Under the pieces are notes generated by a model. It searched no databases. It was not told where the DNA came from and saw nothing but the letters and a program-made list of their open reading frames with translations. A DNA stretch of 64,000 bases. Source: Antricoccus suffuscus (lineage in GTDB: Bacteria > Actinomycetota > Actinomycetes > Mycobacteriales > Antricoccaceae). Positions 1 to 56,595 of the stretch are shown one piece after another. How positions within the stretch are numbered: position 1 is the stretch's first letter; each line of letters begins with the position of its first letter. The translations under genes and the position numbers were made by a program. The stretch covers positions 1 through 64,000 of the forward strand of contig NZ_PVUE01000001.1 in assembly GCF_003003235.1 (NCBI RefSeq), written 5' to 3'.

Positions 1-90
1 GTGCGGTGAAAGTCGCACGCCGGGTTCGGAAGGCGGCCTGGGGAAACGGGCCCGGAGTAATTCAGGAACCGCGCCCCAGGCCGACCTAAC
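1..90 (+). mobile_element. 3' end of a group II intron (domains V and VI)
   Basis: Bases 1-18 form a 7-bp hairpin capped by a GAAA tetraloop (8-11). This is the distal half of domain V; its basal 5' strand with the catalytic triad lies before the window. Bases 32-43 pair with 74-86 in a 12-bp stem interrupted only by an unpaired A84, seven bases from the end, which is the expected domain VI branch-point adenosine. The intron would end at ...CTAAC (85-90), obeying the 3' AY rule. The next base opens an in-frame HNH exon. The reverse transcriptase/maturase gene, if present, lies upstream. Structure is seen directly; splicing competence is inferred. Confidence 0.85.
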
Positions 91-297
91 CACGTCACCG
101 CGTGGCGGGACGGTGGGCCGACGGATATTGATGATCTGACTCTGGTGTGTGGGTATCACCACCGCGCGTTCGAGGACCGGGACTGGGAATCGGTGATGAT
201 CGGTGGCCTGCCGCATTGGCGGCCACCCGCGTGGATCGACCAGGCCAGGACACCGGTACTGCATCACCGCATCACCCTCGCCAACAGACGCGAATAA
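91..297 (+). pseudogene. 3' exon of a 13E12/DUF222-type HNH endonuclease gene interrupted by the intron
   Basis: The frame from base 91 reads HVTAWRDGGPTDIDDLTL, then VCGYHH and a tail ending in ...LANRRE before TAA at 295-297. That is the HNH domain and C-terminus of the DUF222/13E12 repeat family common in actinobacteria. The reading frame begins exactly at the predicted intron 3' splice site, so the intron lies inside the HNH motif, just before its second His. The 5' exon is outside the window. If the intron splices, the gene is functional; if not, it is a disrupted gene. These HNH proteins occur in many copies and often travel with mobile DNA. Confidence 0.8.
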
Positions 298-54885: not shown

Positions 54886-56595
54886 TCAAAACAGCGTGTA
54901 GCGCTGAGCCAGCGGCACGGTGTCGACCGGATCGGGATTCACCGTCTCGCCGTCGATGCTGATCGCGAACGTCTCGGGGTCGACCTCGATCTGCGGCAGC
55001 GCGGTGTTGTTGGGCATGTCGGCCTTGGTCAGGTCGCGGGTGGGCCGTACGGCGGTGAGCCGCCTAGTCAGCCCGAGCCGGCCGGCCAGGCCGTCCTCGA
55101 TGGCCATCGGAGAGACGAAACTCGTTGACAGGTGCGGCGCCGACCCCACCGAACCGGGCAATGCCGGTCGCAGCAGCACCGGCTGCGGCATGGGCACCGC
55201 CCCGTTGGGATCACCGAGTGGCGCGAAAACGATAGCGCCGCCCTTGATCACCGCGGACGGGCGAATGCCGAAGAACGCCGGATCCCACAGCACCAGGTCG
55301 GCCAGCTTGCCCGGTTCGACCGAGCCGACCTCGTGGTCGATGCCGTGTGCTACCGCGGGACAGATCGTGTATTTCGCGACGTACCTGCGGGCCCGCTCGT
55401 TATCGGCCGGCAGGCTGGAATCGAGCGATCCGCGGCGCGCCTTCATCACGTGCGCGACCTGCCAGGTCCGGCAGACCAGCTCACCGATCCGACCCATGGC
55501 CTGGGCGTCCGAGGACGTGATCGACAGCGCGCCGATGTCCTGCAGGATGTCCTCGGCGGCGATCGTCGTCGACCGGATCCGGGACTCGGCAAAGGCGAGA
55601 TCTTCCGGGACGCGGGGATTGAGATGATGTACGACGAGCAGCATGTCCAAGTGCTCGGCCACGGTGTTGACCGTGTGCGGCAACGTAGGGTTCGTCGAGG
55701 CGGGTAGCACATTCGGCTCGCTGGCGACGACGATGATGTCCGGCGCGTGCCCGCCGCCCGCGCCCTCCGAATGGAAGACGTGGATCCCGCGGCCGGCGAT
55801 CGCATCGAGCGTGTGCTGCACGTAGCCAGTCTCGTTGAGGCTGTCGGCGTGCAGCGCCACTTGCAGTCCGAATTCATCGGCCGCCCGCAGCGCCGTGTCA
55901 ATAGCCGCAGGAGTTGCGCCCCAGTCCTCGTGCACCTTGTAGCCGCCAGCCCCGGCCAGTGCCTCTTGCCGGAGCGCCTCGTCGCTGACCGTGCTTCCCT
56001 TGCCGAACAAAATGACGTTCAACGGGAGGTGATCCAGCGCCCGGTGCATCATCGTCAGGGACCACTCTCCGGGCGTCACTGTGGTCGCCTTCGAGCCCTC
56101 CGTCGGCCCGGTGCCGCCGCCGGCCACCGTCGTCGTACCGGTCGCCAATGCCTCATGCATCTCGATCTCGCTGAGGAAGTGGACGTGCGTGTCGATCGCG
56201 CCAGCGGTGAGAATCCGACCCTCTCCGGCGATGACGTCGGTGCTGGGCCCGATGTGCATATCGGGGTGTACGCCGTCCATCACGTCGGGGTTGCCGGACT
56301 TGCCGACGGCAACGATCCGGCCGTCCCGAACACCCACGTCCCCGCGCACGATGCCCCAGTGATCCAGTACCACCACGTTGGTGATGACCAGGTCAAGCGC
56401 GCCTTGGTCGCGGGTCGTCAGGCCCTGCCCCATCGACTCGCGGATGCTCTTTCCGCCACCGAAGACGGACTCGTTGCCGCCGATAGTCAGGTCCTGCTCG
56501 ACCTGGATCCACAGGTCGGTATCCCCGAGCCTGACCTGGTCGCCGACCGTCGGACCGTACAGTTGGACATATTCGCGATGCGAAATCGGGCTCAT
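54886..56595 (-). CDS. ureC: Urease alpha subunit UreC
   Basis: 569 aa, nearly the standard 567-570. Nickel ligands are in [16 protein letters not shown] (HxH), the carbamylated lysine in [16 protein letters not shown], and two His in [10 protein letters not shown] and [32 protein letters not shown] carries the mobile flap. Hydrolyses urea to ammonia and carbamate. It overlaps ureB by four bases. Confidence 0.97.

Follow-up and report, generated by a model that had tools for sequence, protein, structure and literature searches.

A group II intron within the HNH motif of several DUF222 family genes in the genome of Antricoccus suffuscus

The window analysed here, the first 64 kb (64,000 nucleotides) of contig C1 of the Antricoccus suffuscus draft genome (43 contigs, 4.68 Mb), opens at contig base 1 in the middle of an element that leads directly into the last codons of a DUF222-type HNH gene. 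What is this element, and how did it come to lie in the catalytic motif of such a gene? The first-pass annotation had read it as a group II intron that would splice to a seamless HNH, and had proposed that it silences or depends on its DNA-cutting host gene. Our analysis bears out the anatomy: the intron does lie exactly within the HNH motif of a DUF222 gene and the spliced frame would be uninterrupted. The motif restored in the window copy would be H-D-H rather than the canonical H-N-H, and the functional coupling is at most a possibility.

Positions 1-90 are the 3′ end of a group II intron, as had been observed. According to a search with the Rfam model RF00029 (group II intron domains V and VI), the segment matches model positions 10-77 with 34.7 bits (E=2e-5 on 300 bases). 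The contig start, which cuts off the 5′ side of domain V, explains both why the match begins only at model position 10 and why the score stays under the 40-bit gathering score; relatives with a complete domain V reach 46-62 bits. Only the 3′ part of domain V lies in the window. The complete domains V of the relatives, in which the domain pairs, can be aligned with both the GTGCGG/TCGCAC hairpin and the 3′ strand GCCGGGTTC. Domain VI folds with z-scores of -3.4 and -4.0, and none of 200 shuffled sequences was equally good. Its 12-pair stem contains a single bulge, A84, which is the seventh base counted from the intron end C90, exactly as the first-pass annotation described it, and the position of this A is invariant across 14 introns. 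The intron ends in ...UAAC, which fits the AY ending of group II introns.

We aligned the intron end of the window with 13 related intron ends. Across these 14 sequences, 97.8% of the pair cells in domains V and VI are paired, with two-sided changes at 18 pairs versus 10.3 in shuffles; in helix 3, the domain VI stem, 99.4% of the cells are paired and 8 of the 12 pairs show a two-sided change. Sliding the alignment by 1-3 columns cuts pairing to 25-44%, a control biased in favour of the structure, since it was chosen on the same sequences, although the margin is nonetheless large. Elsewhere in the window (56157-56447, plus strand) there is a match to the Rfam family 5_ureB_sRNA with 64.8 bits, which is probably conserved urease coding sequence in antisense and not an sRNA.

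Table 1. Features of the intron and its host gene in the window, intron 5′ ends elsewhere in the genome, and host genes of related introns.
Feature	Position	Strand	Remark
Domain V, 3′ part	1..27	+	First bases off the contig; RF00029 match truncated 5′
Domain VI	32..86	+	12-bp stem (32-43 with 74-83 and 85-86) and upper stem-loop; from fold
Bulged A, presumed branch point	84..84	+	Left unpaired by the fold, with paired segments on both sides
Intron tail TAAC at the 3′ end (AY ending), 3′ splice site 90/91	87..90	+	From empty sites and intron termini
3′ exon, C-terminal part of DUF222-type HNH gene	91..297	+	68 codons and TAA
Intron 5′ end	C4:1-89	-	Identical 89 nt
Intron 5′ end	C19:1-89	-	Identical 89 nt
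Intron 5′ end	C7:213156-213244	+	Identical 89 nt
Related intron L090, Mycolicibacter			ISL3 transposase host gene
Related intron L045, Rhodococcus			IS256 transposase host gene
Related intron L228			IS1634 transposase host gene; junction LVLYDVT^TLYFE
Related intron L048, Rhodococcus			IS1380 transposase host gene

The 3′ exon reads HVTAWRDGGPTDIDDLTLVCGYHHR... from position 91, with its stop codon at 295-297. Its first codon, CAC at 91-93, is the HNH histidine in frame, in agreement with the initial assignment: on this part of the gene alone, the Pfam HNH profile matches from position 18 to 43 of 47 with 19.4 bits. An uninterrupted paralog carries both domains, DUF222 and HNH (the latter at 27.2 bits). 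The DUF222 domain lies upstream of HNH, and it is found with 104.9 bits in the interrupted 5′ exon on C7; the interrupted genes on C4 and C19 likewise exceed the DUF222 cut-off. At the HNH asparagine position the window copy reads DIDDL (Asp) and the occupied copy on C34 DLNKL (Lys), while those on C31 and C8 read DIDNL and keep the Asn. Replacement of the Asn by Asp or Lys suggests that these two of the four occupied genes would have weak or no nuclease activity.

Because the window starts at contig base 1, the 5′ part of the intron was sought elsewhere in the genome. Four identical (100%) 90-nt intron 3′ ends were found, all at contig ends (C1, C31, C8 and C34), and each runs into a different DUF222 3′ exon. 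These exons are 60-96.5% identical to one another, the upper value being that of the C31 and C8 pair, and the flanks past the stop codon are unrelated (23-26%), so that the occupied copies represent independent loci. Against four 3′ ends, three 5′ ends were recovered, again at contig ends and identical over 89 nt (GAGCGCCGTGAGGCGC...). All three start with GAGCG, which deviates from the group II consensus GUGYG at position 2, and upstream of each lies, in the same frame, a different DUF222 5′ exon with WCQIH or WCDIH at its end, so an in-frame 5′ exon of the expected family exists in three paralogs. The 5′ exons on C4, C19 and C7 are candidates for the one that belongs to the window gene.

The insertion site is defined by six paralogs in which it is empty and uninterrupted, IH^HV (TGGTGYNNNRTCCAYCAC; for example TGGTGCCAAATCCAC^CACGTC). 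Joining 5′ and 3′ exons gives the empty site exactly, with a junction ambiguity of at most 2 bases: the six paralogs place the junction within 2 nt of 90/91, and the intron termini then fix the exact point. The insertion is always at WC(Q/D)IH^HV, where it separates the two HNH-motif histidine codons. Together with the RF00029 match, this comparison with intron-free alleles establishes the placement of a group II intron exactly inside the motif. Without splicing, the reading frame would end 23 codons into the intron.

The assembly lacks the body of the intron, and with it the EBS sequences and any reverse transcriptase. Where the exons are diverged, the contig ends have exactly 95 nt in common, on the 5′ and 3′ sides alike, the pattern expected of one repeat that a short-read assembler has collapsed. 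A search of the genome for a group II reverse transcriptase found none, and RF00029 gave no match in it at E<=0.001, which is consistent with all domain V copies being cut by contig ends. The reverse transcriptase on C3 was considered as that of the intron and rejected, since it is retron-like by NCBIfam (C3:118937-119587 of genome G000, minus strand; L036:1213-2520; best match retron St85 with 147 bits, below the cut-off). DUF222 genes lie at or next to the breaks of many contigs in the draft (ends of C2, C4, C6, C7, C16, C19, C22, C25 and C27), and therefore the DUF222 family, besides the intron, fragments the assembly. On C25 (50728-50853, minus strand) the terminal stretch of a DUF222 gene is tandemly duplicated just past its stop codon. 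The situation is a warning that introns of this kind may be hidden at contig ends in short-read assemblies.

Plasmids of Rhodococcus and Streptomyces, and genomes of the same order, carry homologous intron ends. Where the whole body is present, the intron mostly measures about 2.0-2.2 kb; an 827-nt member of the lineage (L232) lies in another genome. A reverse transcriptase is seen in the lineage, though not in the A. suffuscus assembly: an RT/maturase was confirmed in L090, L045 and, from Streptomyces, L047. Four relatives (L090, L045, L228 and L048; about 2.1-2.2 kb, with homologous 5′ and 3′ ends, the 3′ ends 74-82% identical where measured) interrupt transposase genes that, with the flanks joined, read in sense and in frame across the junction (Table 1). 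Further 5′ junctions lie in IS3 (WYNNRR^) and IS30 (WEGDL^) transposase genes and, by eye, in an IS5-like one, while other related introns sit outside recognisable genes; insertion into transposase genes is a frequent habit of the lineage and no rule. The intron of the window differs in its host, since none of the related introns inspected, among the matches listed, has a DUF222 host gene. A broad pattern run over genome contigs gave at least 120 stretches, with no DUF222 insertion among the matches listed and read. The 5′-junction pattern, applied to 395 genomes of the class, was found in A. suffuscus and in G283 only, in the latter without intron or DUF222 context, and none of 8 pattern matches in viral contigs had the GAGGTG signature of the intron. 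Three introns of the lineage in genome G138 (L222, L223 and L224) occupy paralogous open reading frames at RWWNG(V/A/S)^WGR; this target gene has no Pfam match. Four intron 5′ ends at IS3, IS5-like and IS30 transposase motifs (L217, L226, L229 and L230) have no recognisable domain V within ~3 kb downstream, and perhaps belong to truncated or interrupted introns.

How did identical introns come to occupy the same point in different genes? Very probably, a mobile group II intron has retrohomed into at least four dispersed members of the DUF222/HNH family in one genome, always at the same site. The insertions are precise and in frame, the intron ends are identical across different paralogs, and empty alleles exist; the best reading is that retrohoming into this conserved catalytic-motif DNA was recent and repeated. 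Precise insertion is favoured over segmental duplication because the exons already differ from each other a few bases away from the junctions. That the element is a chance hairpin at a contig edge has practically no probability: the Rfam score of the window alone does lie under the gathering cut-off, but the same sequence stands at four loci, with matching 5′ ends at three, RT-bearing relatives exist, and the empty-site comparison and the covariation refute the idea. A dead relic, in which one interrupted DUF222 gene was copied among paralogs by gene conversion or duplication with no recent retrohoming, is improbable as well. Such copying has a precedent in the DUF222-like REP13E12 paralogs of Mycobacterium tuberculosis, which are gene-conversion hotspots and convert often (PMC13061034), and the close similarity of the C31 and C8 exons and the lack of a group II reverse transcriptase in the searched genome would fit it. 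However, identity among the other occupied exons is only 60-82% all the way to the junction, in contrast to 100% for the intron ends. Gene conversion would bring exon sequence along in its tracts, and only about 5-6 nt are common at the junction among the diverged copies.

With retrohoming as the preferred explanation, the following route can be proposed. The intron RNA would pair through EBS-IBS contacts with the conserved DNA around TGGTGCNANATCCAC/CACGT and reverse-splice into the DUF222/HNH target, using its reverse transcriptase. Excision from the mRNA would keep the frame of the host gene, and the ribonucleoprotein could then find the HNH-motif DNA of other paralogs and retrohome there. 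With its conserved catalytic-motif DNA, a multicopy gene would thereby offer a renewable, non-essential target.

Such a placement resembles that of Ll.LtrB and Ef.PcfG, which likewise occupy a fixed point in a catalytic-histidine motif (HIHN-H / HLHN-H), in their case of relaxases, and also invade the same position in related genes of a mobile-element DNA-cutting enzyme (PMC5072309, PMC6003770). The likeness noted here concerns the insertion site and the type of host enzyme; the host there is a relaxase on conjugative elements, whereas here several DUF222/HNH paralogs are occupied in one genome. RmInt1 similarly homes into a mobile gene, the transposase gene of ISRm2011-2, whose expression then hinges on splicing; it splices poorly and may restrain its insertion sequence (PMC4238363). 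It differs in being a class D intron in an element of the IS630-Tc1 family, the target here being an HNH-type gene. By analogy with Ll.LtrB and RmInt1, lower expression of the DUF222/HNH host genes would be a likely side effect of the intron.

Could the intron and its host genes form a coupled regulatory pair, in which the intron, once excised, would target the HNH mRNA again and curb the nuclease, while nicks made by the nuclease would stimulate mobility? This would add to the retrohoming explanation and is not its opposite. Ll.LtrB offers the precedent: it reduces relaxase mRNA by reopening the spliced exons through re-targeting (PMC6003770), and relaxase nicks stimulate its retrotransposition (PMC4256276). 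The geometry is similar here, with the intron in the catalytic-histidine motif of an enzyme of DNA-cutting type. Against it, the HNH Asn is replaced by Asp or Lys in two of the four occupied 3′ exons, and nuclease activity could come from the uninterrupted paralogs anyway; we consider this coupling unlikely. The host gene is likewise at most a putative homing-type nuclease, the term used in the first-pass annotation, and its window copy lacks the canonical HNH Asn. There is likewise a small chance, argued from the same analogy, that intron and family are functional partners at large, with HNH nicks or breaks favouring spread and the intron restraining the family through the spliced mRNA. If true, a relationship like that of Ll.LtrB and its relaxase would have arisen a second time, independently, and here with an HNH enzyme.

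In the literature library searched, no paper joins "group II intron" with "DUF222" or "13E12", and therefore DUF222/HNH appears to be a host gene family newly recorded for group II introns. The system is a fresh, clean example of a known intron habit and no novel kind of system. Relaxases and transposases were already known as intron hosts, and an HNH-type gene now joins them; the case also indicates that multicopy catalytic-motif DNA can act as a safe and renewable intron target. Six empty copies beside at least four occupied ones in a single genome make the DUF222 family of A. suffuscus a natural system in which to test retrohoming and the effects of the intron on host-gene expression.
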